Part shown: positions 306 to 60,083 of the stretch, piece after piece
Layout of the letters: each line of letters starts with the position of its first letter
How positions within the stretch are numbered: position 1 is the stretch's first letter
DNA from: Halichondria panicea
Taxonomy: Eukaryota > Porifera > Demospongiae > Suberitida > Halichondriidae
Length of the DNA stretch: 64,000 nucleotides
Assembly: GCF_963675165.1 (NCBI RefSeq)
Contig: NC_087390.1
Coordinates: 4,473,301-4,537,300, forward strand
Direction of reading: 5' to 3'
The notes under the pieces: model-generated
Database searches by the model: none
What the model was told of the DNA's origin: nothing
What the model saw: the letters and a program-made list of their open reading frames with translations, nothing else
Made by a program: the position numbers and the translations under genes

Positions 306-648
306 ACAGTACAGTACTGCAGTCAAGGCGACGCCAAAAAGAGGCTCACACAATGTAGGAGGAGCCACAAAAGGCATGCACATGACGCCTCCGCCAAAAA
401 GAGGCCACATATCGTTAGGGCATCACAATGCTGCCTCCCCAACCACTATTTAATGGTGCAATGACACAAACCTGAATCACTCTCCAGATCTGTCTCAAAA
501 TCGTCATCACTGGGCTCGTCATGGTCATAACAGACTTCCTGGTCCTCCTCAAGCTCTCTGACAGTGTGCTCAAGCTCGCTGACAGTGTCAAGGAGTCCAA
601 TCAGCTCCATTTGGATTCAAAAGTTTTGAAAATTAATGTACAGTGTAG

Positions 649-7358: not shown

Positions 7359-10300
7359 CTGTAGATATAATAATTATATGAAATTCAATTTTCACAGTCT
7401 TACTACAACAATTTCTGAAAGCTTAGAAAGAGACCTTTCAAATGGTGTTAATATTTGAGAGATAAAAGTATTTGTCAGACATCTATACCTTGGAGTTTGC
7501 TTGCTCAATTGACTGCTCATAGTTGGTGCCTATTTCAGATATCTGTAGTGGTTCAAGGATATAAACAACATTACCAATCAAGTGAAAACTGGTCACTGAT
7601 CCATAGTAATAAATATCTGTAACAGATTCACAAATGTTTTGCATGACTGTGCATGAGGGACCCTCTGGTGTACGAACAGTAGCGGTATGAATTTCCCGCT
7701 CCGTAGTATGTACATTGAATTGTTTTCGTCTTGTACCGTTGCTATGTTGCACATTACAAGTACGATTTTTTGCATTAGAAAGCACCGCGGGTGCTAATGC
7801 CTCGGTAGCTTTTACATGTGTATGAACAAGTTTTGCTACGGACTCTTCTGAAAAGGCTGCAATGCATTCCAAGTAAGCAAAACTAGGCATAACTCGAGAA
7901 CGAAGCTTTATTTTGCAAATCCACAAATACGAATCCAAGAAAACATGACTAGTATAGAAGCCTATAGAAACTCTTACTTGCACTTCGTTAATCCTTGAGC
8001 AGCTGTGATAGCTACACGCATGCACGCACGCACGCACACACACTACCGTATACCTCGCTCGCGCATGCGCACCGAGGCATAACTATTAGAAAACAGTACA
8101 AAGTGACAAAGCTAGCCACATCTAGCTTATGTAGATTGGTAATAAAGGCGCCACAAAAAAAATTCAAAGTTTGGGACACAAGTAGAACAGACAAAATACA
8201 GCCTCTATGTAGAGTGATGGCCACGTTGAAGTTGCAGGATAACTAGCTTTGATGGCACACAAAATAAGCCAAGAAAAATGAGATTGTTCAAATGGCACTA
8301 AGATTATAGAGTGGTGCCTTTATTAGACGTTTTACAGTAGCTATATATGTCTAGCTTACGAACTTAGAGTTTTAGATCTACAACAATCACAGGTTTCCAC
8401 TCAAATTATGATGCATGCCAGTCCAAATGTTGTTTGAGGTATGGAGCACTTATGATACAACAGAGCAGAGACACTTTGCCCAGTTTGTCACCGGCAGCCC
8501 CAGACTACCAGTTGGAGGTATATGCTGGATCAAGCATCTAATTTCAGATACTAAGGCCATGCAAAGTCAATTTGTAGTTTCTCAGGCCCTCGTGCTTGGA
8601 AATTGGCAGCTTTACAATATCACGTGACCTCAAATTAAAGGCACTAAAAGAAAAGAAAAGGATGGTTTTTTGGTCACGAATATGATTATGACAAAAATTA
8701 ATTAGTAAAAATTATGCACTTCCGCTTATTGAGGAAGTTAGGGGTGTGTTTTCAATTAAAATTCTATAAATATCATTATCATTAAAATCCACTTGCGGAA
8801 TAATAGCCTGAGAAACTACAAATTGACTTTGCATGGCCTAAGTAGCTCTTACTATCATAAGGTGTTGTGATTACATCAATTTCTGTATACATGTATGTCA
8901 AACGATCACTTGAGGCAGAGAAAGAATATTGGTACTTATTACTAGTTAGCTAGCTAGAATAATACGTGAAGATCTCAGAGTTCATAGAGACGGTAGAAGG
9001 GTTGTTTTGCGCCGTATCAGTACTCCGCACGTACTGTAAACGAAACGGAAACTTTATATTGACCGTTATACTCTACGTGGGTACACTGAGTGGATTTCTT
9101 ATAATATCAACTTACAGCCACATCACTGGTAGACCTCGGTGTGTGTGAACTTGGTTGACCAAGAGCACTAGAAACAGGTGTTCTTGCCAGGTGCTATAAT
9201 TATTATCACAAACACAGAAGTATTGGATTATTTGTTTATCAACAATATTATTGCCCTTTGCAGCTCACTTGGAAGTTTTTGGGCAATAGTAAATTGCAAA
9301 AAAACCACTTGAGATAATTGTAACAGTTTACATAAGTAAACCTCAATACTATAGAACAAGGTACAAAGTTTAAATTTTGGAACAGATCTTTATGTGGATA
9401 CATACATCTGGCTATACCTACAGTATATTCAGCATAAACTACTAGTTGGGTAACCAAGAAAAACTAATCCTTATTAAGAGGAGTTAAGTGGCGTATTAAG
9501 TGGCAGAGAATTGGAGACTGGTTCAGCAGCAGGCTGTTTCTCAGTCAACAATTTTAAGATCGTTTTAGTTTAGGTAAGTTATATCGTAATCAAGCTACCC
9601 CTAGAGCCCAAACTTTGTACCTTATAGATAGAGATCTGGCCAAGTTGTGGTTTAGCTGTAAACTGTTACACTTACCTCAAGTGGTTTTTTGCATTTTACA
9701 GTAATATACTATTTGCCAAAACTTCACGTGAGCTACAAAGAATCATGAGCGTGAAAAAACTACAACAACAAAACACAAAGATCTAGTCTATTCCAAAATT
9801 TAAACTTTTTTCCTTGTTCTATACATGTAGTATTGTGGTTTACTTATGTAAACTGTTACACTTATCTCAAGTGGTTTTTTTGCAATTTACTATTTGCCCT
9901 AAACTTCCAAGTGAGCTGCAAAGGGCAGTAAGTATGACTGTACAAATACCTTCCAATCATTGACTTCTTTCTTTAGTCCTCTAATCTCTCTTTCCAATTG
10001 TTCCTTATCAGCTTTCACAGCATCAAAAGATAAGAGATGCAATTGCTCCTGTGTGCAAGAATGAGACAGACGTGAAGTCGATAAATTCACTTGTCAATAA
10101 TTATGACGTTATTGCATGAGTATATGCCTGAGTGCAAAATTCCAGACCACTAATTACTACACTCAACACTACCTGTGGGAAGCTGCACGAGTGATAATGC
10201 AATAACTGTGATTTATTGCGTGAGTCACCGTGTAAGTATTTCATACATTGCAGGGTTTCTTCTAAGATGTTGCACACGCTGACTGGACTTGTTATCGGCA

Positions 10301-13300
10301 GGAAAAACTATGGCTTCACTGTGCAATATTTGCAATATGGGTTTCTTAGATATTTTACCAAACATGTAACAGGAGCTGATACATGTTTGCACCGTGCCAT
10401 AACTACGTAGCTAAATGTAGTCCAGATGCTTTCTGGAGATGCATTGCCCCACCCAATATTATCCTACTCTTTGTTGGCTTGATATTACAAGTTTCAATGC
10501 TATGCAACAGACTACATACATGCACGTACACGAAAATGTCAAAACAACTAATAGAAGTAGCTTACTTGCTGAAGGAGAGTTTCCATAAGCTCTCTAACGC
10601 CCGAACCCTCTGTCACCTGAAGCAGCAGGAAAATATGAAATGCTAACGAACAAAGATCACATAAAACTATGAACATAATTATGCTAACTGACTAAGGAAT
10701 TACCTTACGGACAGTAAAATAAAAAGCCGGATGATATCCCATAAATTAGATGTGGGTAAGCTCATGTACAAACCTGTTCACTATGAGTTGACCTGAGCAG
10801 CTTACTCCTCCTGAGCTGGTCTTGGAGAGAGGAAACCAACTGCCTATGATTAAGCTCTGCCTCTTGCCTCAAGCCATTCAAGTGAATCTGATCTTGTTCG
10901 TTCATCTGAAACATCAAAGGTAAAGTTTTCATGGATGCCGTAATTATAGAGAGTGTTCAAACAAGTATAAGAGGCAGTGTAAGATAGTTATTATCATGTA
11001 GAAACTATGTTGTGTAATGAGATATATCGATCTGTCTAACCTCTAGTTTTGACTGGAGGTTCCGATTGTCTCTCTGTAAAGTTGCTAGCTCCTCACTGAG
11101 GGTGCTCAGTTCAGCCAGTCTTTCCTGATATGACTCCAGCTCTCTCTGGTGGGTGGCCAGTCGGTCTTTGAAGGCTCGCACTTCTCTATTGGCTTGGGAT
11201 GATAACATCTTCTCCTGTGAATGTCAGAGAAAAAGGAATCTGGCTAAGCACAATATAACATTTCTACAACAAGAACACACACGTAGATCAAAAATATAGC
11301 ATGCAGGGAACCAAGATTAATTAATACTCCAAAGACGGCACACTACAATTTTGCTCCACTGAACCATAGATTGAAGAGTTAGAGGGATAGGAAACGGAGT
11401 GGTGCACGTGATGATTTTACATTGAATCTGCAGTGGAGCCTCGAAAATTATCCGCGCTACGCCCTATGAACGAGGCTATTAACCATATTTTTGCCGGGTA
11501 ACTCCCAAAGCTGTGTTTCCTCGAGACATCATCTCTTTCAGCAACTTATAACACGCCTAGTCCATGAGCCACGTGTAGTACTTGCTAATGACTGACCACA
11601 CCCAGTAAAAAGAGACTTTCCAATAAAGTTATATGTTCCCAAGGCTGTTTTAGAGCTATTGGAACATGTAACGTGTAAGCGTGCTGGTTATGACTACTAC
11701 AATAGGTATAGACCTTGAAATATAAGTGAGTTGCACGGACTAAGCACAGTTACTTGTAGTTTATTATGCACTGAGTGTAGAAATAGATATTGTTGTGATG
11801 GCCTCGATTAAACCGCAGCGTAGCGCGGATGTTACTCGAGATACCAACCGTTTCCTATCCCTCTAACTCTTCAATCTATGACTGAACCAACACACCATCT
11901 CATTATTTATTGACTCAACTATAAGAACATTGATATGATACTATAATATAAAATGATATTATGACTTTGTGCCAGAAATAATAAATAGTATTGACATTTT
12001 ATATTGACGGTAAATGTTACATGAGCGGACACCTAACAGCTACTGAGTAACAAGGTCCAGGAGCATTAGTTTCAGTTCGTTGACACTCGCACCAAAAGTG
12101 GCCACCATGGTGCTTGAGGGAAGATGATTCGATACTCTCCAGACCATGCGCTCTACGAGAACAGTGGTAGTCGAGAAGATAAGATCTCTGCATGTTACAC
12201 CGAGAAAGAACAAAGTTGAAATACTAGCATTTTGTAAAAATTCCCTATCACAGAGAATGATGCATTTACTATACGTATAGCTAAACCCTACAATACAATG
12301 CACACGTACATGCCTAAATTTGATAGTTAAGTGAGCATTTACCTCTACTTCAAGAGGAGAAGGATGGGTGGAGCAGAGGTCCGTAGCCTTATCACCATCC
12401 ATTGTGCTATTGCAAGTGGAGTTACGAATCTCAACTTCACAGTTATTGTAAGCAGTCACTGGGTGATGAACTTGGGAGCCAAGACTAACAATTTTAGACT
12501 GAATAACACTCATAGTTTAAACAATCTGTTGGATCTTAACTTCAATCAAATTCGTCACATTTTCAACTTCTCTCATCATGTGCAAAGAAATATTCTCGAC
12601 AGCTCTTTCATTGAGGTCTACTTGCTCACTGATGTTTTGAAGGCTTTCATTAACAAATTCCATTACATCATTTTCAGCTTTCTCCACTTCTTTCTTGCAA
12701 ACATCAACAATATTTTGTACATTCGTATCAACATAAGAAAATATCCGTGTGATAGCAATCTCAGTTTCAGACTGAAGAGCTATAATAGAATCTTGAGTTT
12801 TCGAGTCTACAGCAGCCACACTATTTGATGTGGTTAATTCCAGTTGCTCCAGACTATGCTTCAACATAACATTATCATCCTCCAGTGTTTTGATTTTTGC
12901 TGACATGTCATTGATAACAGTCGTTTGATAAGCATTCAACGAAATATCTAACACCACAACAAGAGACAGTGTCAGTATTGCAGCAGTTACTGCAACATAT
13001 AGGCATCTGGGGGAGTGGCGTTTCTCGTTGAGTGAGCAGTATTCGTACGATTTCTGATCCATTTTTGAGTCCAGTCTGATACCAACTACTTGCAGCACTC
13101 TTTATATAGTAGCATTTGCTGAGCACACTGCATGTGAACTGTTTATTTATACATGTGAGTTTTAGCTGGGAATTCCCTGGGAATTTACTGCATGACTGCA
13201 TGTGCTTCATGACAACACATAACTACATTCATGAATGCACACTTAATTATTATTACAGCAGGCTTGTTTTATACCGTGACAACACTTAACTACATTCATG

Positions 13301-16300
13301 AATGCACACTTAATTATTGTTACAGCGGTTGTCATATCTAAAAGCAAGACACAGTAGATTATTTATTGTTCCATTCTAAAAAGTGGCAAAACAAAATAAT
13401 AGAAACATCATTTTGAGCATACTACACACTCCAGTTCCTTTTCACTATCGTAGGGGGGACAAGGCAAACTGGCGCAGCTAGCTTCAGTGTGCCATAAGTC
13501 AGAGGCCTCCATATGACCAGAAGAGCCAGGAATAGATTCCATACCTGCATCGACACAGATGTACATCGTGCGATAATTTGCAGTTCCTTCAGACATAAGA
13601 TAGCCAATGTATTCTCTAGACCAGTCGGTAGGGCAAGATGTCTTAGCAGGAATCATGATGACTTCAGCACGTGTAGATACTGAGCAAACAGCACAGGGCA
13701 CATTTTCGTTAACAGTGCCGAGAAATACAGATTCGTATTCAGCTCCATACATCAAACTAGCTCCCTGGACGCCAGCCTCAAATGGGAGCGTGTACTCTGG
13801 ATCAGTAGGCATACACAGATGGTTGGAGCCACCACCTTGTAGCATGAAACTATTGCCACCAACATAGCCACTGTAAACTAGAGTAGTTCCATTCATATCA
13901 GGGCATGAACTGTTTCCCCATCGAACATATGTTGTACGCTGACTACTAGAAATCTGATCAGTGAGTTTGTTCTGATTTTCGGTAATCCGTGATTCAAGGT
14001 TCTGAACGTCAACTATCGTTTGAGTTAGCTGTTGATCATCATTCGATAACAGCTCCTGAAATGAGAGTAGGGCAGACTCACTACTGTTAAACTGCACTCT
14101 TAATTCGGACATTCCTTTTTCAAGAAAAGCAATGCGATCTTCAGCAATTCTGTAATAAACCACCCCAAATACAATGATAGCTACGAGACACAGCACAGAA
14201 ATCAGTGTAGGTATAAACACCAATGCCCATCGTACACACTTTGCACACACAACAGACGTGCTTGACTTGCCACTAAAAGTAACATTTGATTCGTCGATTC
14301 CAAAAAAGTCTTCCTTTTCAGAACCCATGGGTTAGAGAGAGAATTAGCAGCTACGTATTAGCAAAACAACATGCAGACACACCCATGACACCCACACTCC
14401 CCCATAATACATATATGTTTATTGTTAACTAGTCCATGTCCATGATTACTGTTATACATGCATGCAATCTCAAGAGTGCATGTGCTGCTTACACCATAGG
14501 ACATACACAAAGCTAACTGGTAAACTACCAGCTACGAACATAAAAGCACTACAACTAATAAGTACATGCATGCAGTTCGTGTGATGCTACTCACAATGGA
14601 CACGACACTTAACGCTACTACTTTGAGCACACTACACACCCTAGTTCCTGTTCATCATTGTAGGGAGGACAAGGCAAACTGGCACAGTTGGCTTCGGTGT
14701 TCCACAAGTCAGTAGAATCCATATGATCAAAAGAGTTAGGAACAAAACCCATACTCGTATCGACACAGATATACATCGTGCGATAATTGGTAGTTCTTTC
14801 AGACATGATATAGCCAATGTACTCATTTGTCCAATCGGCAGGGCAAGATGTTTTTGCAGGAATCATAATGACTTCAGCACGTGTAGACACTGAGCAAACA
14901 GCACACACAGCATTCCGGTTGGCAGTACCGAGAAACACAGATTCGTATTCAGCACCATTTATGTTACTAGCTCCCTGGATGCCAGCCTCAAATGGGAGCG
15001 TGTATTCCGGATCAGTAGGCATACAGAGATGGTTGGAGGCACCACCTTGATTCCCAAACCAATTACCACCAGTATAGCCACTGTAAACTAGGGTAGTTCC
15101 ATTCACATCTGGGCACGAACCGCTTCCCCAACGAACGTATGTCGCACGCTGACTTGTGGATACTCGATCAGAGATGTCACTCATACCCTGTACAAAGTCA
15201 GCTCGTGTTTCATCGATCTGTTCTTGAATCACAGTTGGTACAGTAGTTGACATCTGTTCCTGAACAGAAGATAACATGGACTGGGTCTTGTTGATTTGAG
15301 CATCCAATTTAGCAGCACTTGACATCTGTGCCTCAACAGAAGATATTAACATGGATTGAGTCTTATTGAGTTGAGCTTCCAATTCAGCAACTCTTTCCGC
15401 AAGATCTCCCACACTTTCAGTAATAACCAGTCGGTAATAGAGCACTCCAAAAACAACCACAGCAGCTACACATAACAGGGCAATGAAAACAGCCAGAAGC
15501 ATCACAAGACATTGGCAACACTTTGAACAGCGGCTCTTGGATTTACCGTTGAATTTACTGTTGAAAGTCACATTTGTCTCGTCAATTCCAAAAATTTGTT
15601 CTTTGTCAGACACATCCATGGTTCAAAGTTAGAGATACAACATCTACACAACTTGCAACACTGACACACCCATACACATGTACATATAAACAATTCATGA
15701 TTTAGTAGAGACAACATGCAGACAGACAGACACACTTCATGATTATCATTAACATGCAGGTGTCAATAGGGGTGGTTAAATTACAAAAATTACAATTGTA
15801 CTTGACACATTTAACAAAACAATTAATAAAAAAGTTCACATGCATCAACCATACAAAATTATTTCGTTCGTATCATTGAGCAATTAACCATCTTAAGCAC
15901 ACAACAGTGTGGCTGGTCACATGTTCGGTAGCCACTCAATGTGCAGTCACAAGATACTTCGTTGCTCTCGATTTGAGTCGCATTTGTCAGTACAATAGAA
16001 GTACCATCACGTATCAATTCACAAGAATACTCAAAATTCTAGAAAACAAAGTGAAAAAGCAATAAGATATGACACCTAGCTGTTAGAATCACTCGGGTGC
16101 GACTATTAAACAGTATAAGCTAACACATAATGGACATACAATTATGTGAACGAATGCACTGTGCCTATAGTCTCCGTGGTAACACAAAATAGGGGTTCTC
16201 TATATATATCGTATTTGCGTGATCAGAGGCCGTGGCTACTAAATGTTTCATTTTGCTGGAAAAGAGCTACAGTATGAGAGAGGCGTTTATTACTTGCACC

Positions 16301-19300
16301 CCGGCAAATTCATACACCTTTAGGTTGAATTTAGGTTGCATCAAAACTTCTTTCTTACTTGCACAAAGTAATAGTACCTATAGCTATGTAAATGTATCAA
16401 TAATTATGGCTGCCATGTGAGGGTCAGAGTTCACTGAGGCTACTATTTGACAGCAGTTTCTATTGCACTGCTATTCTGATCAAGCAAATACGGTTTTGGC
16501 ACATATCAGAAAATGTAGGAGATTGAACTATATCTCTATAGTTATTATGATCAGGGAACAGCACAGCGGTAACATATTATACGATTTGGACACATAAATA
16601 TGCACACCTTATTCCATTGAACCTTTTTAGTACTGCAGATGGGAAACTCCCCACGTGTTTGTCTTGACGGAGCTGTGCAGTTAGATTCATTGTATCGAGT
16701 TTGCTCACAAGACACATTTTCTAATTTAGAAGTTGCTTTGCTATCTTCCAAAACGTTAGCACTGTCCACATTTGATTCGACGACATGCGATTTTAAATTT
16801 GATTGTCTGTCCTGAACTGGAGCCGCAGTAACAATAGCAACAAACAACAATGCCCAAATAATAGTTCTAGTCGATACGTAATGATGACATGCCATTGCTA
16901 ACAATCGATGAACAACTTGTTGTGAGAGGCACAATACTATTCAAACTCTTTCTGCTGACTAACTTTCAAGCACCAATTATGGACTTTGCTTCCGTTGAAA
17001 GAGCTTATAAAGCAATGCATTCTGAAAAATCTTCCATAGCTTGCAAAACAAGTACCTGGGAATCACCCTCCAAATAGTTCCAATTGCACAGCAAGTGGGT
17101 ATCTACCTCTTGTACACAGTCAGTATTAAAGGAGAACTGCTTAGTTAGCTATATGAAGGCATTTGGGACATTCCTTAACAGAACAGACATTCACGATTCC
17201 CGGTATAATTGCCCTTGCATAATTATTATCAATAAATTATGTGCAAGCGCACATAATTAAAACTACAAAAGTGGTGCCAATCTTATAGTTAAAGCTATAT
17301 AATTATCTGGCAGTAACAATAGTTATTATGTAACAAACAGAGATGACAAATTGCGTAATACCGTATAGTGCGAAATTTTCGAAGGGCTTAATTTTCGTGG
17401 ATTTCGTGGGTTAGAATTCTACACGAAAATTAATTCTATGAAATTGTTCTTTAATTAGAATTACCTGCTATAACATGCAAAGATTTAAAGGCGTGGCTTC
17501 CGGTAAGCAGTCATTCTGCGAACATTGTGCAACGAAATGGCTTTTAGAGACCAATCCACAAAATATAAGTGCCTCGAAAATTTCGTGCTATACGGTATAG
17601 AACATCGATCCAGCGTTTTTTCATTTCGAAAAAGACAGTCATGTCATGACAAGCAGGACTGGTATAAACGATATACTCTCCTAAGTTAAAATTAATATGG
17701 AACAGTCATAGTCACAATGACTACATTGTCAAGTTAAACAGTTTTCTATCAAACTTTTCTTTTAAAAGCACATGTAGGATCAACCAGTGCCAAAAATCCA
17801 ATCCAAAAATCCAATTGAATATTCATCGTTATACCAATGATAAAACCGTGGAATAGAAGTGACCAGAAAAAAAACTTGATAAGCTTGAAACAACGGCACT
17901 CATTTTCAATGAAAACCGAGACAAGAGAGCAGATGAACAGCAGCACAATAACCAGATGCCATATTAACATCCCAGACACAAAGAGAATACCATAATAATT
18001 GTAATAATTATTACAAATATTATGGTATTTATTGTTGCGCAGCATCGCAGGAAAACAAAATAATTACCAGAGAATGGAAGTCAACATTCCAACTGTCTGC
18101 TTACGATTGTTGCAAACTCTGAAACACATTTAGTCTGATACATGTGACTATAGCCGATATACATCATAACTCAAAGAGAGTTTGACAATAAATTGGAATA
18201 TGTGATGTGCTTGCATAAGCTAAATTACAGGTCATGAATATCAAACTTGATTTATTCTGTGACGTTATTATAATTATATGAATAAGCCTTTAAGAACACG
18301 TGCATGTGCACATGCATGCACATTTCACAATTGCTATCTACAATGAATAATAGTCAGGTAACAGGTGCCAGTGAAGTCCCCAGCAATAGCCCGCTGTCTG
18401 TCTCCGTCTTCGCCAGGAAAGGTGACATCACAGTCACACCACACATGGTCACTATCCTCCTGTAGCGTCAGACTCTCTTGGTACTCGCTGAACCTCCCCA
18501 ACGGCTGAAAGGAACATTCACGCGAGAGAATAACCTTCCCCTACAATGAACGGAAGTATTGATATAGTGCATACATGGCCTCAGAAAAACAAATAGCATG
18601 GCATATACAATGTAAGTACATAAGAAATTATGCACGTATATTAATCTTCTTATATGCATTATAAATGTACTGCACTATACAGGCATTAGGTAATGATAAC
18701 ATATAGATTGATAGAATAATTATGTTCTATCTAACTGACTAAGTACTCACCACTTCCTTTATTAAAGTTGTTGGTGTTCGACAAGACTTCCAGTATTGCC
18801 CTTGTCTGGACGAGGGCACTGTACAGCTCTGTCTATGAGTAGAGCAAAGGTTGCTCAAGCTGACGCCATTGCTTTCAGACTGATGTCCTTTAATGTGTTC
18901 CTGAAGTTGCTCGCCCAAAGTATTCAAGCCTTTATACGAATTATCAGCAAATGATTTAACTGACTTAACCGTGGTTTGAGTTTGGTGCAATTCAATAGCC
19001 AGCTTCTCTACAGAATTCTGCATCACTTGAGTCTCATTTGAACCAGAATTAGATTGAAAGTGAACCAATTTTGATGCTTCCAATTCTTTTCGCAAACTAG
19101 CTAACATATTTTCCAGTTTATCCATTCTTTCAGAGTCGCTTAAAACCTGATCGTTTCCTTCAAAAGCTTTACGATTTTCCTGTAAGCTAGAATTTATTCC
19201 AGTAACCATTCCTTTGATGGAAAGATTCAGTTTTCGAAAGGCGTATCTCAACTGATCAGCTTCCATACGAGAGTTTAGAGCTTCTTCATTCAGTTGCTCA

Positions 19301-22300
19301 ATCTCATGATTCCGTACGTGATTAGTCCAGAGTTCATAAAGAAAGACTACAGCCAATGCACCTCCGACCACCAAAAGTAAAAGCAACATGGCATTGTCCC
19401 TCATTCTAACAGCTCTCACAGTCTTCATAATTATATTATCAGGCCTCTCACTGTATGCGCACACGTTACTGCTACTTCTATTTTATACCCTATAAGCACA
19501 CCCCCTCTTTGGCAGCGTATCACATATGTACACATCAGCTACAGGTATATAACCATTGCAACATAATTATTGCTTGATTGCAAAATAGGTACCATGGACA
19601 GAAATCCCCTGGGAAAGTTCCTTGGATTCTGTGATAGGATTAGAACTATAGTATGACATCATCAAAAATTCATTCATACTGAAGTACTAATGGCATTCAT
19701 GTGTGCCCAAGTATTTGAGGGGAATCCCCAGGGATAATCCCTTATAATTATATATAAATTGTTTTTAGATCAGTCCCATGATGTCAGTAAGAAGGACCTG
19801 AATAAAATTCTGCATGCTGAATCCGCGAACATAATTATGATCGTGAATCGGGACTGATCTTGAATCTATAAAGCAATGGTTAGAAAACTGTTTTTGGTCG
19901 CCTTTGAAGATTGCCTACAAGTTTCGGATCAAGTGGCATATGCGGCACCGAATGTAATTTTGAAAGGGTTCGGGGTTCAGGTTAGCTAGGGTGTTTCCAC
20001 ATCCGGTGCACATCCGGTGCCGTATAAGCCACTTGATCCCAAGTTTCAACTATAACTAGCCTATTATTATCAGTTAAAGCAGTCCATAAAAGTGTCTTGT
20101 TCGCTCAAACAGCTCATTTTTGTGTCCTAACCCAAACACACACACCAATCACTCTACTCCTGCTGCACGCTGCACACACACACACGAGGTAATTACTGCA
20201 ATGTTGATGTACATGCAAACATCTTTGCATGGTAAAACAGTGGTGTAAACAAGTGCACATGCATGCAGGAAGCTACTATCATAACAAAAACAATGCTATG
20301 CATGACTACATAATGCACCTCTGATGGGCAGAGCCCAGAGAAAGGATTATGCCACTACAGTCTTTAACTTCTAATTGTCCAGTACACCAGAATGAAATGT
20401 GTTTCATTCCTGCCGTGCATGACTGTTTCTAGGTAACATTTGATGACAAGTAATATCCTATGTGATTGAAACTATATGTACATCCAACACAAGGTTTCGT
20501 TATGTTCTTTTTGCTGACTATTATTGGCACAATTAGCTTTTGTTGAAAGAGCCTACATATTTATTACTATGTATCTGTCACTTTGTCTGCTCACCTGGAT
20601 GCCAAAGTAGTGCGTTTACAGCATTGATAGGCTCAACATAATTATGTGTAACTATGCAGATATTAGTTTTGTTTGTGGCAGTTTTTCTCTTGTAGTCAAA
20701 TAAAAACGATCAAAGCTAAGAAGCTTGAATTGGCACGTTAGATAAACTAGCTACCCGACTTTGATTTGAGACATCAACATGCGCACTCTATACCACGTTG
20801 AGCCCATCCATGTGCTTTGCAATCATAATTATGAAGACTGGTTTAACGAAGATCTTCAATGACAGAATATTCTGTTGGTGAAAATGCTGTTCTCAAACCG
20901 AAGTCCTTGCCCTGGATGTGGGGTTGAGAAAAGTAGCTACCCTACATTAGCTAAGCCAAAAAGCTGCGAACAATTGTAGCACTCTATACTATAGTAGTAA
21001 GAAAACTAGAAAGTGAGTAGCGTAGTCATACTTAAAACAATGAGCCAGAAATTTAGATTATAAATAATCACAAACTTTAAGTGTTGCTGCACTACATAGG
21101 TTTTATGTGTCTTTGATTCCTGTCTTGATGTAGCAGGTATATATAGCAATGATGTAATTTTAAACTACTACGATTCAGGATATGTACTCAATAGGTCAAT
21201 GCTAGAGAGCGAGTGCTGACTCAGTGGGTTGGATATGTTTCGAGTTTCATATACATGTATAAGTGACCCTTAATTAATCCTGGCAACCTCCTCTGCAGGT
21301 ACATGTGTATGCAGTATTACCAGGGAACTATACCTAATATGAGTTGCTATGTGGACATTCCCTAACAGATCAATATTCAGTCAAAATTCCCGTATACGTG
21401 CCAACACTTCCTAAGTGAGAAAACAAGCAGACAAACGTAAACATGTATTGGGAACACAGGTAGACGCAAGCCAAAAAATTCCCTAAATTACGTAATTGGA
21501 GGGAAGTTATAAATGTGCTAACATCATTATCAGAGCAGTTTATTTGTCAACTAATGACTTTTAACCTAGACTGGCTTTTGAATAGCCTGTCTTTACTCTT
21601 TATTCATGCTGTGCACACAAAGTACACAAAACTACGTATAGTACCTATCATAAATGTAATGGTTTTTAGTGGATAGACCGAATGAAAAGTTACATATGCT
21701 TATTATCATCGCAGCGATGATATAACTTTAAGGGAAGTGAACCGTTAGTTACCGAGAAAAGATTACAAACAACACAAGTTAACCAGATACTATTAAAAAC
21801 TTTACTAATCAGTTAGTTTCGAAACATGAACTCAGCAACTGCACTATAACCAATAAACAATAACCAAAGTGATGTAGCTTTACTGAAGTTTTTATTCTCT
21901 AAGATACATAACTTAGAATTTTCGTCCATTAGTCGAGAGAAACAGCATCGTAATTCCAGAAAATTAGTCGAATACCAAGTAGGAATAGCACTGTCTCTTA
22001 CGGCATAATCACTCGAGCAGATATGCCGAACACAACTCCATAACAGCAGTATTAATGGTGAAGAGTCCCAAAATAGAACAGACACGATACGTAACATTTC
22101 CAGCATAAAGTCACCAATTTCCTGAATTGTTTCCATGATTTGCACAATTGTGACAGTAGTGAGATTGCAGTTAAACTTGGCTGTGGCTATTTAGCTTTTA
22201 TACAATACCTACAATGTACTATACATCATAACACGTACATCAGCATGCATACATACATTCAGCGTAGAATGTGCTGAGTGTACGGGAGTTGTTGCTATAG

Positions 22301-25300
22301 GATCGAGATTATAACAAAGAAACAACAATACACATTAAATGTTAGTCTCTGGAACGTATGAATATTCTTGGGAGCTCAAAAAATGTACATGTATGAATGT
22401 ACTCATCTAAATTCTAAGTAAATTAAACAGTAACTATACAGATACTAGCTACTGTATATAGCGGGTAATTTTCGTGGGGTAAAATATTTGTGGTTTTCGT
22501 GGTTGGAGGTCTGACCACAAATATTTTACCCACGAATGAAGCGACCTTTCCTACCTTTACCTGCAGTGCAAGCAGCAACCACGAAAATATTACCCACGAA
22601 ATGTCTCAATATTGCTGAACCACGAATATTTTGTCCCCCGAAAATTACCCACTATACGGTATATAGGCAACCTATATAGAATGCATGGTACAAGGAGCAG
22701 TCATTTTCAACTTCTAGTATGTACATATATATATAGGAATCCATCACAGTAGAAACATAATTTTTTTTATATTATGTAGTAATTATATATAATTTTACTT
22801 ACAACCGAATTGATTATAAAACGGGGTGATACTGTATAATTATTATACATCTACACATATCACACAACAAAAACAAGGTCAATAAGAACAGAGTTTGTCA
22901 GAGTTAACTAATCTACATAGATATCTAATCCACAAATACGTGGCATACATATGCATGTGCATGTGCACACAGCAGTGACGCTCACTTAAAAAGCTTCTCT
23001 TAAGAACTTCAACACCTTTACAATCCCATCCGATGCTCCAAGTCAAAATGTTTCTTCTTCCCAATACCAAACTCTTACACCTGACAGGCAAATGGATATT
23101 ACAAATTGACAAAAATTCCTCAGTGTTTTGTGAATACTACAGCAGCATCCCAGTGTAAAAAACATGATTATCACCAAGTACCACAAGACAACTCCAATGA
23201 CAATCAAGATATCTAGAATACTCATTATAACTGTCTGCACGACTTTACAAATACAAAAACTGACTTGTGACTATAACATATAAGGGTGTGGCACATACAC
23301 AACTATAATTATGCTGATGTGCGTATGCATGCAGCCTTATGAATAATGTAATGGTTGGTGTGTGCACACAAGATCAGATAAACTTCAGCCAAAGAGATCA
23401 ATTCTTATAAGAACGAAACTTCACATGCAACTACTGTCAGTCGATCAATTCTCACTGTATTCTTATCATCATGAAATGTTTTAAATTGCCAATAGCCGCT
23501 CAGTATGCTTGAAAGTTGGAGCTACACCGAACAATGCTTAAAGTGCATATGCCACGAAAGTCATTATCAATGGAGCGTTGCCTATCACTATTTTCTCCAG
23601 GGAATGTGACATCACAGTCACACCACACACTATTTCCGTCCACTTGAGGAGTAAGACTCTCTTGATAGTTTCTGAATTGTATTGGCGAGTGGAACGAACA
23701 TCTATAATCAAGGGTGATCTTGTCCTGTACAAGAAACATGATAATAGCTATAGCATCAAATTGCATGTACATGTACTGTCGCCCTTACCGGTAAATTAAG
23801 CGTTACTTTAGACGTTTGACAAGATTTCCAATACGATCCTTGCTTTGAAGACGGTGCAGTACATTGCACACTTTCTGTTGAACAGTGATCAGCTAAGTTA
23901 ATGGTTGGATGCTGTTTTATAAGGTCCTGGAATTGCTCGCCCAAAGTATTGAGACCCTTGTAAGTATTTTGGGCATACGATTCAACAGCGTCCACTTTTG
24001 TTTGTGTCTGTTGCATGCCCAGCTTTGTTTCAGTCAGCTCTTTTTCCACTACAACAATATATTCAGAAATATTTGTGAGCTTTCTAGTCGCTTTCATTTC
24101 GAAGGATGCATGGTCTCCATTCAATTTCTTTAGTGAAGAATCCAGTGTGGTGATTGTACCATCAGTAGAGTTTTTAAACTCTCCAAAAAAATATTTTTGT
24201 TGATCAGCACCAAAGCGGAGATGTTGTGCTTTTAGTTTCAGCTGCTCAATTTCGTGGCTCAATACATAGTTAGTCCAGACGCTGTACAGAAAAACTGCAA
24301 CCAATGCACCTACTGTTACCAGTAGTCCGAGTGACATCCAGCTATTCCGCCTTTTAGCAGCTCTTACTGGCTTCATATTTATTGTCAGTGCAATAATACA
24401 TACAGTAACATAGCACTAGTGGGTCTGCTGTATGTTTTATACTCTGTAAGCATGCATCGTTGCTAAGTGTATATGCCAGCAGCTGGGCTGTGGGCTAATG
24501 AATATTGAATTACCCTGAACTATATAAAGGATTCCCCAGGGAAACTCCTGCAGAATTTCCCTACAATACTATTTTTAGTTGGTACAACTATGACATAACC
24601 CATGCAGAGTACTGCATGTTGCTAAATACACACAGTGTATTTGCACTTAGGGAAATCCCGGGGATAGTCCCTAAATAAACTGGCAAAGATCACCACTCAA
24701 ATTGGTGGTGGAATGACAGTACAATGGTGCACGGCACTATTGTTGCAACTACATGTATTATCGGCAGAACTTGCGTCAACGTTCAGATGTAGCTGTAAAC
24801 GAGCCAGTCAAACCACATGCGCTAAAGTGCAGCAATGTACACACATGCAGGATTTCAGGGTATAAGAAGCCCAAACCGACTTATGCAGGTAAAAACTCAT
24901 ACAGTTGTTAACGGTACTAAAAAATACACAGCAAACGTAGCAGCCAGCATGATTAAGTACTGTACTGTTTTCATGCCCAGACACACTTTACGTACAATGT
25001 ATAGACTCAAAACAAACAAGGCTGCACATACATGCATCTAAGTTACTCACCTGGAGCAGTTTATCAGTAGTCTGAGTGAGCCGTTCCTCCTTGGCTTGCA
25101 GCACCGACCTCAGAGTGGAAAGCTCCTGCTCAAGACCGGACAAACCGTCTGTCTCTGCTATTTTATCTTGTCTTAAATGCTCAAGAGCTTCATTGGCTTC
25201 ATCTAGTTGAGCCTGTGAAAACAAAAGTAACAAGATAAAAAACTTTATAGCAAAAGCTGTAAAAACTATTGATACTGTATAGTGGGAAATGTTCGTGAGG

Positions 25301-28300
25301 TGCAAAATTTAACGTTTTTTGAGGCCAGAGCAGTTGACGCGAAAATTAAAACTGGGATACACTCTCACGCACCGGTATTTTACATACAAAGCTATTGGTG
25401 GGTGTGGTTTCCTGGCATTGAAACGTGAATATTAGAACCTACCAACATTTCTGCTGAGGGCTTTGGAGCCAAATAGCGAAAATTTCCCGCTATACGGTAG
25501 TCACATTTCTACCACACCCTAGGATAATTCAATCAATTAACTTAGCTGATCACAGTTAAACTGTGTGTGTGTAACCGGAATTGAAGTCATGGGATTACAA
25601 TCACAGCTAGAAGGATTTATGACACAAATTGGGATGCTACAGAGTCAATTTGATGCTTTTGGGTCTACAGAGCAGGCAAATAATGACCTACAAGATCAAG
25701 TGAACACTGCTAACCAACAACTTCAGACACTGCAAGTATTTCGAACTCAACAAATTCACGGGCATTGCTTAGTGACATCGATATCTACAGACTCTAAAGT
25801 TGTTTCATCCTGGCATTACTATGGATAATCCAGCTACATTGTACATGTAGCTCTTGCAGTGATAATGGACATTCTGGAATGTACCGGATTTAATTTAGCA
25901 GTACTAGCTCTCCTGTTTAGGTCTACTGTAACATGAATCGAACAAACTGTAGTTGCAGCTCTACAGGCGGGACATGACTGACCCCAACCAGAACTGTCCA
26001 AGGAAATCCACAAAGGCCTTGAAATACACTGAGTTGTATGTCTACCACTTACTCAACATACGGTGTAGCCTCGATCCCAGGCTGAGTTTTCGCTTTTACA
26101 ACGGTTAGGCGAACAACTAACCGTTATAAAAGTGAAACTCGGCCTGGGATCGACATAATTATGGTGTGGAGTTCACAAGTATGTGGTCGAATCATAGCCT
26201 ATCAACTTGATACAACGGATGGCTTTCAACACTATCAGAGCAATAATTCGCTAACAATAGACTCAAGTTAGTGGGTACGGAAATCACCACGGCAACACAT
26301 AAAATTATGGACATTTGCTTCAACTTTCAATGAAGGAGCAATGGACGCGTTGATATGTCCCTGCATTCGGTATTTAGTCTAGTATTATGTAATGACCGCA
26401 CTCGTATTTTAATCACATTTCTACACATCCAAATTTAACGTGCTGATCAACAACTGTGCATAGAGCTACAGTAGAGAAGTTTCTGTTCTGTTTGCATACC
26501 GTATAGAGGGCACATTTTCGAGGGTATAAACTTTTGCGGAATGACCGTTAGAAAGGATTTAGCGGAATAGCAGCCTTTTTGCAGCATGCATGCGATACTA
26601 AATTCGTGGGTATAAATGTTCGCGTTACATGCTTAATCAGCAAAAACCACGACCATTCATATCTTCGAAATATACCCGCTATCACAGCATAACACGTGCG
26701 TAGGCGCCTTTGCGTGCAATCTATTGAGCTTACTACGCAAATGGAATAGAAAGTTTAATTTGGCCTGTAGGCTAGTTTATTTTCTGATCAACAAATGCCA
26801 TTAATATATAGGTAAATAATACAAGAAACAACAAGTTACATGTAATTAGCACTACATATACATGCGTACACCAAAATTAATGTTCTCTAAGACACAAAAC
26901 TTAAAATAGTTTGTCCCAAATGCCGAGAGAGAGCAAGTCTGAATCCCAGAAATAAAATCGAATTAAAAGTAGAACGATACCAAGAAAATACCGGATCATA
27001 TGGCGAAGAACATTCTCCCCTGTAGAACAATTGCTCAAGCAGTATCGAATAATATTCCACAAGATCAGTATAACAGGTGAAAGGTCCCAACATGAAACAA
27101 AAAAAGTACGAATGCAGTTCTCTATCCAGTTGCCATTGTTTTGAGCTGTTTCCATGACTTGTATACAAATGTAGCAGTAGAGTAATAAGTTTCAATTAAA
27201 CAATGAAGACCTCTCAGACCTTGAGATACACAGCAGCAAGCTTCACTATATAGTTAGTTAGTTAGTAGTTTTGTGGCTGGCTATAAAGCTGGTATATGTT
27301 CAGTAAATCTACAAACTGCCAATACGTACACAAAAGCTTACTATTACGTCAGCTTGGAATGTGCTAAGTAAGTAAGTTGTTTCTAAACAAGGTTTAGTCC
27401 CTGGTGTATATACAGTGCTTTCAGCTTTGATTTAACCACAGAGTGAGTAGTTGTACTTAAATGTATCTCAAGATTGGAACCGCATTTCTAAGAAAGGTGA
27501 ATAAATAAGCTACAACCTTATTTGAAAATATTTCCCCAAAAGTTGTTGTAGTGGGAAATCATTTTAGGTAAAAATGTGGGTGATCGTAAAATATATGTGT
27601 AACATAAAATATCTCCGGAACTAAAGTATTTCTGGACAACTTTTTTGTATCAAAAGACAGAAAATTTATTAACAATTAATGTGCAAAAACAATTAGACCT
27701 TAGCCGACAAATTTGCTTGAGTTCCAATCGCTAAGCGAAAAGGCACCTAAAACATCCCATAATTGAGTATTAATCAGTACGTGTACTTATGTAAGCTATA
27801 CGTAATCATGCATATGTTAGCTAAACTATTCAGGAATGTTGTGCCAAAGTTCCATACCTTAGCCGAAAACAATTGGTCTTTTCCATCGCTAAGCGATTGT
27901 CCACTATAGAAAAATGTTGGTGTTTTATAAACCACCACATACCCACCACCTTTGGTTGCCATGGAAATACTTTTGGATATGTTTTAGATAATTTGTTCAC
28001 CAACACAATGGTATTATCATCATATTTTCTTAGAAATGTTCCAATCTCAAAATATGTACTAACACGTACCAAATTGCGTTTATTTACTCTATAGACTAAA
28101 GTAAAGGCACTGTACATGAATGTTATTGACGTCATGAATGCATGCATGTACAAAATTAAAAAGCAGAGATGTTGTGCTTTTAGTTCAACTGCTCAATTTC
28201 GTGGCTCAATATATAGTTAGTCCAGACGCTGTACAGAAAGACTGCAACCAATGGCACCTATTGTTACCAGTAGTCCAAGTGACATCTAGCTATTCTGCAT

Positions 28301-31300
28301 TTTCGTAGCTCTTACTAGCTTCATATTGTCAGCGCAATAACCACATACGTAGCACTAGTGCATGGGTGTATGTTTTATACTGTAAGTATGCATCGTTGCT
28401 GGTGCATAGCTGGGCTTTGGGTTAATTAATACAACCAGTAGGTTGTACATAGGATTGGCAATACTAGTGCTATTGTTTGCATGTGTTTTCAATTATTACC
28501 CAAGGCCGTACCGCCGCCAGTGGGTATATAGCAGTCCGTTGGTTTGTTTGTTTGTTTGTGTATTCGGAGTCTACTCAGCTGGATATCATAGCGCTGCATT
28601 TACAGCATGGATAGCCTTCACATAACAAGTTATAATAGTGGCAGATTTTAATGCATATGTATAGCTTCATTGTCGAATAAAAGCTAAGAAGCTTGAACTT
28701 GCACGTTGAGCTAGCTACACTGTGGTCCTTATTCGAGGCACTGACTTGCAGCTGAAGTGATCCCGTACCAGGAACAATGGAAAAGGGTCACTAAAGTAGA
28801 AAGCTAGAATTGTGACTGGTTTGTTGTCTTTGGAGGTTTCTTTGCTGACTCTGGATCCTAGCACCAATGAGCCATACTTCTCTAAGAATCCAGGCTTCTT
28901 TGCTGCATTTGTGATCCTAGTCCACAGTCCATTCTCTTGTACCACTAAAACTCTGTTCTCAAATGTTTCAGCATGCCTCCTGAGTCCACTCTGGATTGTT
29001 ATTGCTCCTGAATTGCTGTGCTAGACAGCTCAGTCATATATACATATACTACATGCACTAGATTATATCACGTACTCCTCTGATTTCATCATGTCACCAG
29101 CCGAGGGTTTGCACTTTAGTGCTCTCGTTTGAATATTGAATATTAAATTACAGTACTATACAGTAGTCGTTCTAATCACAGAACCGCCCTAATACAAGCA
29201 TATACTGTCGAATTTATGTTCTAATCAAGAATCGTTTCGAAATGTTAATTACTGTGTTGGGTGCCTAGCTAATTAGAATGCACATGTACTGTATTCTCCC
29301 AATGGCCTCAAGAAGTTCTTTAAAGCAGTAAACATTCAGAAGGAAATGCCATGGGAAGCTATAAATGTACTATCATAACAAAAACAATGCCATGCATGGC
29401 TAGCATACTCAAAGAAAGTGCTACGCCATCAGCAAATGTGACAGAACTGTATTATACAAAAACAATGCCATGCATGACTAGCATACTCAAAGAAAGTGCT
29501 ACGCCATCAGGAAATGTGACAGAACTGTATTATACATGTACATGACTTATATAAAGAGAGAATTAAGACTCACTTTTGAGACAAATTTTGGGTAAATCAA
29601 TTTACTACAATGTAACAAGATATCCAAGTGAACGGTAAAATCTACACCTAGCAAACATTTCCTTGTACAAAAGTAGGAAGTGCAGTATAATACCCTTTCA
29701 GAGTACATGTATGCATGGTTTCCTATAGCGGTTACAGAAAAAGAATGAAAAGTTAAATCATGTACACCAATCACCCATACGTAACAGAGGACATTGGCAC
29801 ATGCATGTAAGCTATAGCAACAGTTGTGAATAATCATAATCTTAATTGTGGTGCATGGTAATTACATGTATCAACACAATGAAGGGTATTCCAAACAACT
29901 TGTTCCACTAGCATCATGCACCACGAAAATTGCTAATTATGCACAACCAATTTTTGACCCAATTATATGCATGCGCAATTGTGGGCGCTTCTACGATTGC
30001 AATTAGGCCTCTACAGGACTTTCAGGCAAAAATAGGGGGTGGGCGATTCGACGATAATTATATGTACGTAACATAATTATATACCTTCATGAAAATTGAA
30101 TAGGCTTTCTAACTGAGTATTCTGTACTCTGATTATGAAGATTATGAACGTACATTTCAAACAATAAATGAGCCGTCTGGTAACAGACAAAAATCGTAGT
30201 AAAGAGAAGCCTTTCCCTGAAGGAAAAGGAATCAACTACACTGTACGTACTTAGCGAGTGAGATCATAGCTCTCAGAAATAAACACAAAAACCATACACA
30301 CATGAGTATGTGCTATTAATGAACAGAAAGTGTCCTGGGTATGTACGTATATGCGGAAACGTTCATTGATGGCATTAACTACATGTATAGTGAAACACGA
30401 GTACATCCCACACATTCCACAGGCAGCTTTAAGACACAAGCAGTTAACGACGGATAGATCAGCTAGTATAAACGTACGGAATGTAAAGCTTGTTAACGAT
30501 AATGCCAATGCTGCTATGAGTACTCTGAAAGGAATCTCCCCACATAATGATCAGAAAGTGCATGTCCTGAGTGTGTATGCAGAAACGTTCATTGATGGCA
30601 TCAACTATAATAGTGAAAAACGAGTATGCACATCCCACACATTCCACATATGCACACTATAATAGCAGCTTTAAGACACAAGCAGTTAACGACGAATAGA
30701 TCAGCTAGTTGAAACGTACGGAGTGTAAAGCTTGTTAACGATGGCAGAGTCCGTAATTACTAATGACAATGCTGCGTATGCTGCTAGGGAAACTCAACGC
30801 AATGCGTATTCGAATGTTGAACACACTACGTTTGCAATCAACCAGAATAATGCTTATATTACTGTTAACAGACAAGAAGAGAACGAGTACTCTGAAGTGC
30901 AGAAGAATCCGTTTGAGTGCAGTGTGAACACAGCCTACGACACTAACAGAACAGAGGGAACTGGCATGTATGCTCTACCGAACTTGCAAGAGAACAGAGA
31001 TGTGACTGACTGCTGGGGCCAGACGGAGACAGGTAGCTGTCTACGAGATGCCTGACCTAAAGAGAAATTCCGAAGATAAACTAACCCTAAAGAGGCCATC
31101 TAAATGTGACGAGAAAACAGATGAGAAGCAAATGAATTGCTGTTGTGGTGTTTTTCTAGCTCTAGTGATTGGTGTCTTCGCTCTCATGGTGGCTGCAGCA
31201 GCAATCAGCTACTCTGTGATACAGATCTTAGAATTGCAGGCTCAGCTAAACAACGATAACAAAGCACTTCAAATGTTGCAAGTTCAACTAGAAACTTCTA

Positions 31301-34300
31301 ACCAACAGATTCAAATCTTGGAAACAAAGCTAAACAGTTCTCTCAAACAGACCGGAATTGAAGTCATGGGATTACCATCACAGCTAGAAGAATTTATGAC
31401 ACAACTTGGGATGCTACAGAGCCAATTTGATGCTTTTGGTTCTACAGAACAGCCAAATAATGACCTACAAGATCAAGTGAACACTGCTAACCAACAGCTT
31501 CAGACACTGCAAGTATTTCAAACTCAACAAGAAAACATTTCACAGGCGTTGCTTAGTGACATCGATACCTTGCAGTCAAACGTACAGACTCTAAAGTTGT
31601 TTTATCCTGGTATTACTATGGATAATCCAGCTAGCTCTTGCGGTGATAACGGACCTTCTGGAATGTACTGGATTCAAACTAGCAGTACTAGCTCTCCTGT
31701 TCAGGTCTACTGTGACATGAATCGAACAAGCTGTAGTTGCAGCTCTACAGGCGGATGGTTGCGGATAGCCAACCTTGACATGACTGACCCCAACCAGAAC
31801 TGTCCGAATGAATTAAATTTCTTTGGCCAGGGAAATCCACGAACAATACGTACTTGTGGTAGGCCTGGAAATACACTAGGTTGTGTGTCTACCACTTATT
31901 CAACATATGGTGTGGAGTACTCCCAAGTATGTGGTCGAATCATAGCCTATCAACTTGATACAACGGATGGCTTTCAACCCTATCAGAGCAATAATTCGCT
32001 AACGATAGACTCAAGTTACGTTGACGGTGTTAGTTTGACGTACGGACAATCACCCCGGCAACACATATGGACGTTTGCTTCAGCTTTCAATGAAGGAGCA
32101 ATGGACGCGTTGATATGTCCCTGCATTCGATCTAATTTTACAGGCACTGTTCCTCCCTTTATTAATCAAGACTACTTTTGTGACACAGCCGGTGGTGAGG
32201 GGATTAATCGATTCAATTCCTTTGATCCGCTATGGGACGCAATGGGGTGTGGGGGTGAAAGCACTTGCTGTGAGTTCAACAATCCACCGTGGTTCTGCAG
32301 GCAACTCCCTCAGCCAACCACAGAAGATATCGAGCTGAGGATTTGTGGAAGTGAGACTACTGGTAGTGAAGACACACCTCTCGAGCAAGTGGAACTCTAT
32401 GTACGCTAATTGCTACAGTGCATGTAAGTACCGCTATAGTCAATACTGAACGTAAATATATAGATCTCAATGTCAGTTGTATAACTTCCATTAGTCGAAT
32501 ATTGTACGTATTTCATGACTGCAGTATTTTATTATCATTTTTATACATTATTATACAATTTAATGCGCTGATTTATCCTAATCTTTTTATTTTTATGTAG
32601 CAACATAATTGTTTGCATCCTCAAGGAATTAATATGACATCTCAATCAGCGAGAGAAGAAACATAAGATGGCATGAAACTAACTACAGTAGCAAAACGTT
32701 CCCGTACCGTTCCCGTAGTACGTTAACAAGCATATCGTTTTAGCAACGTTTCACTGTACCGTTTTTCGCATGTGGAAGTATGGCGTTGTAATGGGAACTG
32801 CCCAAAGAAACACTCAAGTACCTCAGGCAGCAGTTAAAAAATATGAAGGTATTCATAATTGACGAGGTGTACGTATTTTACTCGAGATGACTAGGATTGT
32901 TGCTTTGTTCAACTGCTTCAAACACAACGCCATACTTGTAAAGTGCAACAGTTAGCAATATGGTACGATAAATTTCAACGCTATTAATGTGCTGTCAAGA
33001 CGAAATTAATGCTTCAAACGAAATACATGTACAGTGTACATGCGTACGTGCTACGTAAACAATATAGGGAACAACTTTATATTGACCGCTACTACATGTA
33101 ATTGGCATGCATCATCTCTCTATAGGGTTTATTATAGGTTAAGGGAGGGGAAACAAAAGATGCTATATACTGTACATTTATTGTTGCTCATCCTTGGAGA
33201 AGCAAACACATTTGAAGGGGGGGAGAACGAAATGCCCCTTTTGTCCCCACCTGAAAGAAACCCGGAATTCTCCCACCTTACAAGCAATCATACTGACACA
33301 GCCCACCTGTAACTGCACTGCCATTGCCTGTGAAGCTCCACCCTCCTGCTTAGCCCTCTCATTCAGCCTGTCATTGAGCTGCTGGTTGATTGTTTTCTCC
33401 CCCAACAGGGACCCTCGCAGTTGAGCAGACAAGGCCTTTTCTCTAGAGCACTCGCCCCTGAGTGTGGTCTCAATTTCTCTCAGTACAATCAGCTCCTACA
33501 TGTATGGTAGGAACGTACATTCATTGCATGGAATCAAACTCACTTCCACTAATTCATTACTTTATGGTACCCAGTGAGTCAATATCAAATTATCACTCAT
33601 AAAAAAAATTGCCAAAGACTCTCATACATAATAATATGATATGAATTTGTGATTACTCGTAATTAGTTACCAAATACTGACCTGCTTCAGAGCTCCTAGC
33701 TCAGACATTGCACTGGATAGAGCACCCTCCATCTCGACTACCTTCTGTCTGGACACACCCACTTCCTCCTCTGCCCTCCTCTTACTGTCCTCGGCTTCGT
33801 TAACCCTTCTCAATACTCTCTCAAACTCTTGACCCTTTGATGCAAACTCTCTGTCCTTTTTGGCTATATCTCGACTCGTTTGTTCTAACTCATGGGTCTT
33901 ATTTCCAGTCTCAGTGACTTTATTGGCTAGATTCTGCTTTGTATTGGCCAGTTCTTGCTCTAAGAGTGATAGTTTGGCAAGTGTGGATTGTAGCTGCTGC
34001 AGTAAGGTGGTGTCGGTTGGATGTTGGGAGTTTGCTTGGAGCTGTGCCAAAAGATCTCGATTCTGTGAAAGTTAAATTTATAAGGTTATGCAATTGTGAC
34101 AGATGTACAGTATACAAGCTATGCACACAATAATTATTGTGCGTGACAAAGGAATAGCTTAAATTTTAAAGGTATACATATCTTCATAATTATGGATACC
34201 GTATAGCGGGTTACTTTTGTACGGTGGAAATGTTCGTATTGTAGGAAAATTCGAAATTATTCTACCACAATAGGTTCTCCTGAGCTGTACCAATATTTCA

Positions 34301-59835: not shown

Positions 59836-60083
59836 TTAATGTACATTAAAAATGCACAATGTTCTCCCCAATTATCCACTAGTCGTGTGACCATAATCCC
59901 AGGCTTCAAGTATTATTGATCAGTGTAACTGCATGTACTGTACATACAATACACATTGTACATGCATATATATATGTATATATAATATATTATGTGTACA
60001 ATGTATAGTTTAACTTATTATTTAATATAATGACGCCATCACTATTGCTATTCACACACACACACACAGATATTCCCTTGAGG

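Follow-up and report, generated by a model that had tools for sequence, protein, structure and literature searches.

The introns of a centrosomal gene of the sponge Halichondria panicea that encodes a PACT-domain protein raise the question of what a set of smaller genes for putative surface proteins is doing inside them, and whether this set forms a fast-evolving recognition cluster, as an initial annotation had proposed. We analysed a stretch of 64,000 nucleotides from contig NC_087390.1 (C14:4473301-4537300, the window), and searched the 131 Mb assembly of 39 contigs for relatives of its contents. On the sequence evidence, we lean towards the view that the introns house an outpost of three families of surface or matrix proteins spread over the genome, distinguished by their C4-like, WC and fibrinogen-like heads, with the WC family as a candidate recognition family. 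C4-like heads matched at least 116 places in the genome and fibrinogen-like heads at least 96 (91 of 256 candidates scored), indicating that the three families are no local inventions. The site itself is best read as old and constrained rather than fast-evolving, and we regard its location in this host gene as permissive, not as functional.

Nested genes in two introns of the PACT gene

Host exons were predicted from the DNA as a chain of phase-0 exons only, using a codon model trained on two long open reading frames (ORFs) of the host. The chain was ordered from 57076 to 10774 and contained exons 33495-33307, 25212-25051 and 11214-11041, with none in between; it stopped short of the PACT exon and did not pick a coiled-coil ORF at 48406-49284 (minus strand), which is built of near-identical internal repeats. 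This prediction reproduced both intron positions given in the initial annotation and, since it joins them, the flanking coiled-coil exons at 25051-25212 and 9.9-11.2 kb fit one transcript, as had been supposed. An assembly artefact or a mis-joining of gene fragments found no support and is scarcely credible, given that the host chain keeps its order and phase across both introns and that their contents match families with full-length members elsewhere.

The two introns contain four WC genes, two C4-like genes, one fibrinogen-like gene, two relics and two small ORFs (Table 1), and by the predicted gene models whole genes lie inside one intron of another, the arrangement that defines nested genes. 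In agreement with the initial annotation, most features (9/11) were on the host strand (minus), the other two being on the plus strand; local duplication and decay were evident as paralogue pairs of WC and C4-like genes and as broken fibrinogen-like and WC copies, and the three heads showed no detectable similarity to one another. The common plan of tail, membrane span, coil and head that it had described held for WC1, WC2, C4a, C4b, the fibrinogen-like gene and, up to its stop codon, WC4, but not for WC3.

The nested genes have starts, stops and introns of their own, and a TATAWA motif was found 40-75 bases 5' of the start in four of the six minus-strand starts tested (WC1, WC2, WC4 and the small ORF at 22 kb, with WC3 and the small ORF at 27 kb lacking it), against an expectation of about 0.063 for each (binomial P 0.0002, for a range picked after looking at the data). 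The same range held TATAWA in 5 of 16 WC genes from arrays or clusters elsewhere, where 0.06-0.13 was expected. Together with the constraint in C4a/C4b and WC1/WC2 described below, these signals point to putative independent transcription units rather than host exons. That the host uses the nested ORFs as alternative exons, or that host and nested genes are co-regulated, would be in keeping with the predominance of the host strand, but is most improbable in view of these separate starts, stops and TATA boxes, the membrane-directing N-termini, and relatives located outside any PACT gene.

The two small ORFs were similar to each other (40% over 45 residues). Their ratio of nonsynonymous (dN) to synonymous (dS) change was 0.60 over the whole length and rose to 1.11 when only the first 45 codons were taken, which makes them no more than possible coding sequences. 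Two further short ORFs, at 17749-18063 and 23043-23270, weakly resembled each other, and the former had no further match in the genome at E ≤ 1.

Table 1. Features of the host gene, its introns and their contents (window coordinates)
Feature	Position	Strand	Description
Host ORF with PACT domain	6555-7373	minus	PF10495, E 7.2e-13, above its cutoff
Host intron, second	11215-25050	minus	13,836 bases, between exons 25212-25051 and 11214-11041; from phase-0 splice sites and chain
WC4	13062-12017	minus	tail, membrane span, coil, in-frame TAA, then head exons
C4a	13408-14331	minus	single-exon, putative type II protein with C4-like head
C4b	14618-15622	minus	C4a paralogue, single exon, membrane protein
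WC3	16895-16608 + 16038-15859	minus	signal-like N-terminus, no coil, WC head
WC2	19428-18751 + 18540-18334	minus	WC1 paralogue
WC2 TATAWA	59 bases before ATG		
Small ORF 1	21813-22190	minus	member of a pair; nothing else in genome at E ≤ 1
WC1	24376-23789 + 23724-23500	minus	14-residue tail, membrane span, coiled coil, WC head
WC1 TATAWA	65 bases before ATG		
Host intron, first	25213-33306	minus	8,094 bases, between exons 33495-33307 and 25212-25051; from phase-0 splice sites and chain
Broken copy of fibrinogen-like gene	25574-26369	plus	in first intron
Small ORF 2	26901-27191	minus	member of a pair; nothing else in genome at E ≤ 1
WC relic	28160-28431	minus	WC1-like; upstream TATA region, tail, membrane span; frame broken
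ORF upstream of fibrinogen-like gene	30741-31022	plus	possible tail of that gene; tyrosine motifs YSNV, YITV, YSEV
Fibrinogen-like gene	31006-32409	plus	membrane span, coil, 271-residue head
Secreted-type C4-like gene	44578-45207	plus	between host exons 49862 and 42684 of predicted chain

Constraint at the site and the spread of the heads

The WC head has eight cysteines and is encoded by two exons, with a phase-0 intron at the same place in WC1-WC4 and seven cysteine columns invariant across the four. WC1 and WC2 were 40% identical over exon 1; their dN/dS was 0.14 in the tail and membrane span, while synonymous change was saturated in the coil and head, indicating an old rather than a recent duplication. 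For C4a and C4b, whose heads were 77% identical, dN/dS was 0.32 in the head and 0.35 in the tail and membrane span. Their DNA agreed at about 77-92% of positions in the head, falling to a lower and more uneven identity in the coil, so that either conversion of the head or stronger constraint on it is possible. The relic in the first intron was 83% identical to 24212-24504, including the promoter region. In WC3 no membrane span was seen after the signal-like N-terminus, and since its query matched nothing else in the genome at E ≤ 1, its membership of the family rests on the cysteine plan and the intron position.

These results bear on the proposal of the initial annotation that the site is a fast-evolving, birth-and-death recognition cluster. 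Relics, a stop-bearing copy and local duplicates are what such a cluster would leave, but both pairs tested looked constrained, the WC1/WC2 duplication is old, the WC1 and WC2 tails are short (14 and 12 residues) and without tyrosine, and the WC arrays elsewhere in the genome are larger and more uniform; we therefore consider the proposal unlikely for this very site.

An alignment of 12 C4-like heads, taken from the 116 matched places, had 22 invariant columns and identified the C-terminal domain of spongin-type short-chain collagens. A paralogue on contig C3 carries a collagen triple helix (PF01391, E 3e-13) and several others have Gly-X-Y stretches. In C4a and C4b the place of the triple helix is taken by a membrane span and a coil; their head is the one that closes collagenous proteins encoded elsewhere in this genome, a likeness to spongin-type short-chain collagens (PMC5395295). 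The label collagen-C4-like given by the initial annotation is accordingly apt for a sponge-type short-chain collagen and not for collagen IV. An identity with the collagen IV NC1 domain found no support, as a profile of the 12 heads retrieved no collagen IV structure among PDB sequences and the Pfam collagen IV domain matched none of them. The secreted-type C4-like gene (Table 1) lies beyond the two introns in another intron of the same host, and its head was 47% identical to that of C4b. When 16 of the 116 matched places were placed in a tree, the three C4-like genes of the window did not group together as one local radiation would, yet a single clade was not rejected (approximately unbiased test, p-AU 0.129); the membrane-anchored C4-like proteins (C4a, C4b and two on C10) fell on one side of a branch with 82/91 support, which is not decisive. 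At C9:443345-447738, two pairs of C4-like matches with equal scores and spacing suggest a recent segmental copy within an array.

The collagenous relatives raise the alternative that these are structural matrix proteins, with the C4-like head as the C-terminal domain of a short-chain collagen and the membrane-anchored copies tying cells to the matrix, the WC and fibrinogen-like heads serving likewise, and without any recognition. The triple-helix paralogue and the Gly-X-Y stretches, the constraint on the window C4 pair, and the occurrence of short-chain collagens in sponges and other invertebrates, as a passage of PMC5395295 describes it, all speak for this alternative. It leaves unexplained the tyrosine-bearing tails of WC and fibrinogen-like proteins and the head divergence in one WC array (see below), and we regard it as a serious though rather doubtful reading.

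The start of the fibrinogen-like head resembled fibrinogen beta in the PDB, with an E value of 0.33 when the protein was searched singly and 0.03 with a six-row profile, and in Pfam it matched Fibrinogen_C or COLFI. Five of six family members matched Fibrinogen_C at E ≤ 1; the window head stayed below the curated cutoff (14.2 bits compared with 22, over 39 residues only). Beyond about the first 45 residues, most of the head had no match in the PDB and Pfam searches, so the likeness to fibrinogen-related proteins is weak and partial. In another sponge, Dysidea avara, microbial signals elicit a response of genes with fibrinogen domains, according to a passage of PMC6208332. The ORF that may encode the tail of the window gene had no relative in the genome at E ≤ 1.

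Across the genome, each head was found on several kinds of carrier. C4-like heads occurred with a collagen triple helix, with Gly-X-Y stretches, with a membrane span (window, C10) and with a signal-like N-terminus alone (44578-45207); fibrinogen-like heads were on secreted (C5:0.92 Mb, judged by eye) and membrane-anchored proteins (C5:1.298, C13, C17), and a WC head could be joined to a long tyrosine tail, to a short tail or to a signal-like N-terminus. This range indicates that heads and anchors have been mixed genome-wide, carriers and heads having recombined, or anchors having been lost and gained, many times. The head swapping proposed by the initial annotation has support at the level of the genome, not within the window.

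WC arrays and their tyrosine-bearing tails

A whole-protein search retrieved two WC genes only and suggested a family confined to this locus, which was overturned by searches with the heads. On the contig of the window we found array A (C14:5.94-5.965 Mb), with 11 exon-1 WC heads (a second exon followed in 10), and array B (C14:6.324-6.370 Mb), with 13 exon-1 heads, 10 with a second exon and one of these doubtful. The array heads have the cysteine plan of the window heads and an intron at the same place. The stretches analysed contained additional heads on C9 (two) and C4 (one), an unrelated pattern match being excluded, and other WC places were C14 at 3.06, 4.57, 5.83, 5.92, 6.28 and 6.30 Mb and C9:2.326 Mb. 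No Pfam family matched at cutoff when one spliced window WC head, two array ORFs and the window WC exon-1 ORFs were scanned. In a tree of 23 heads (the four of the window and 19 array or cluster heads with both exons, out of 23 by a stricter pattern), support was 100/99 for array B, 65/72 for array A and 85/79 for the window heads, the last grouping calling for caution as the long branches of WC3 and WC4 meet there. Plus-strand ORFs border array A (minus strand) at either end (C14:5938645-5939250 and 5965778-5967454), with an fn3 domain on one side and NDNDN-ending repeats on the other, and the array may itself be nested in a host gene.

At least one YxxPhi motif was present in the tail of 15 of 16 array or cluster WC proteins, and in the remaining one the ORF encodes no clear membrane span. 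Among seven representatives, of which four were WC and three fibrinogen-like proteins, 12 such motifs were counted against a shuffled mean of 4.9, with 8 of 5000 shuffles reaching this number, while the C4-like membrane proteins (three on C10 and two in the window) contained none. Typical tail motifs were PVYEEV, PVYEEI, ELYEHV and SHYMTI, several being of the form YEEV or YEEI; in the window, the WC4 tail carries YCSL. Tail sequences of the form [SIVLT]xYxx[ILV], the pattern of the inhibitory tyrosine motif of natural-killer complex receptors, were seen in 6/6 proteins of array B, 1/8 of array A, the C9 protein and one fibrinogen-like protein, and in none of the window proteins examined.

Substitution was compared in six genes of array B (15 pairs) and eight of array A (28 pairs), the pairs being non-independent and the regions short. 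In array B, median dN was 0.047 in the tail and membrane span, 0.091 in the coil, 0.236 in the first head exon and 0.186 in the second, and dN exceeded dS in 10/15 pairs for the first head exon and 1/15 for the second. The dN/dS ratios of array A were 0.63, 0.48, 0.47 and 0.71 across the regions, and dN exceeded dS in 8 of the 20 usable pairs for the second head exon. The tails of array B are nearly constant and its heads varied, a pattern compatible with head diversification and no more.

A gene of array A (C14:5962771-5962147) has a tail and membrane span unlike those of its neighbours, with the same coil end and head. Its protein and a fibrinogen-like protein on C13 formed the best of 88 cross-head pairs (z 7.0, segment-wise shuffles), and a genome search with its N-terminus gave two fibrinogen-like N-termini among four non-self matches (E 0.05 and 0.09). 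The same N-terminus still aligned with its array neighbours, mainly through the coil, and some same-head pairs scored as low as z 1.7-1.9, indicating that N-termini diverge fast in general. These matches are suggestive of one anchor that may be common to two unrelated heads.

Co-location was typed with representatives of 44/116 C4-like and 46/96 fibrinogen-like places and with 17 WC places. Two of eight WC clusters lay within 10 kb of a C4-like cluster, compared with 0.08 expected, one of the two being the starting window; when the window was excluded, the count was 1/7 against 0.069 expected (P 0.067). For the typed representatives, neither WC with fibrinogen-like nor C4-like with fibrinogen-like genes were near each other above chance. 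The region C9:2309262-2326561 resembles the window in having WC and C4-like genes at most 10 kb apart.

From these sequences we infer proteins in which a disulphide-rich head would mostly sit at the end of a coiled coil with an N-terminal membrane span as its anchor, and would otherwise be secreted. Such proteins would have type II topology and might form oligomers, bind partners, signal, and be used in recognition or adhesion. Once phosphorylated, the tyrosine motifs of the array WC proteins could dock Src-type SH2 domains, pYEEI being described as the best Src SH2 ligand in a passage of PMC7337045. The short-tailed intron copies would serve as ligands, decoys or adhesion molecules and not as signalling receptors. 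A more specific WC recognition system can be imagined, in which tyrosine-tailed receptors from the arrays on the same contig would read short-tailed or secreted WC and C4-like ligands encoded in the PACT introns and at the C9 locus, with anchors and tails common to unrelated heads through exchange of exons or modules; we hold this to be improbable as it stands.

Several observations weigh against an outpost of surface families that includes a recognition family. No TATA box was found in the stretch examined 5' of C4a or C4b, nor within 90 bases 5' of WC3, and the in-frame stop of WC4 sits between coil and head. The ORF that may encode the tail of the fibrinogen-like gene (30741-31022) and the body of that gene are in different frames, which only the removal of a 31-base GT-AG stretch (31002-31032) as an intron would bring together. 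AlphaFold models of the fibrinogen-like head alone and of a three-row C4-like alignment were both of low confidence, with a mean predicted local distance difference test (pLDDT) score of 33.2 and 30.6, respectively. In array B, an excess of dN over dS was limited to the short first head exon, for which the count in array A was 0/28, and its faster-diverging heads could be the outcome of gene conversion that acted on the 5' part. More generally, YxxPhi is known as a signal for endocytic sorting.

Known systems and neighbouring features

Nested genes are ordinarily 5-10% of genes and reach 12.4% in the glass sponge Aphrocallistes, the annotation method having an influence (a passage of PMC10282587); thousands are annotated in Amphimedon and Sycon (PMC10282587, PMC8527503, in part), and in a ctenophore host and nested gene often run in parallel (PMC8527503, in part). 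The arrangement is the same as here, and the relevant passages of these two sources describe no multi-family surface-protein cluster. Clusters nested in one host have precedents in NF1, with OMG, EVI2A and EVI2B, and in MOB2, with KRTAP5 paralogues (a passage of PMC4394429). As at our locus, an unrelated host has more than one protein-coding gene in its introns, among them genes for surface proteins or tandem paralogues; the genes within NF1 are on the opposite strand, whereas here most are on the host strand and the three families are large or arrayed elsewhere. Since nested genes are common in animals and such clusters have precedents, the nesting is ordinary.

The type II receptors and linked CLEC2 ligands of the vertebrate natural-killer complex, as outlined in part of PMC3679072 and as generally known, likewise have a common type II plan, paralogues on one chromosome, and tails of which some have tyrosine motifs and others lack them. 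The heads found here, however, are unrelated to the C-type lectin domain (no Pfam match to a C-type lectin-like domain in the proteins scanned), and any pairing of receptor and ligand among them would be conjectural.

Nesting is a known arrangement and alone changes little; what merits further study is the WC family, with its arrayed genes and their tyrosine tails. No description of the family was found in open-access titles and the starts of abstracts, so publication elsewhere is possible. The receptors of this early animal lineage are poorly known, and if the WC family is real and expressed, its arrays with near-constant tyrosine tails and varied heads, and its short-tailed or secreted relatives, would form a defined gene set for self/non-self recognition. 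Such a family would also show unrelated heads borne by one anchor set.

Three features of the window lie outside these families. A short tandem repeat at 34978-35409 (plus strand), which yields open frames between host exons, is minisatellite-like. A PP2C phosphatase gene (PF00481, E 4e-32) lies past the end of the host chain at 60009-61514 (plus strand). The first 360 bases of the window (1-360, plus strand) contain a repeated stretch that reads HRYSTAEEKARPHQRL at about 3-125 and 132-257.

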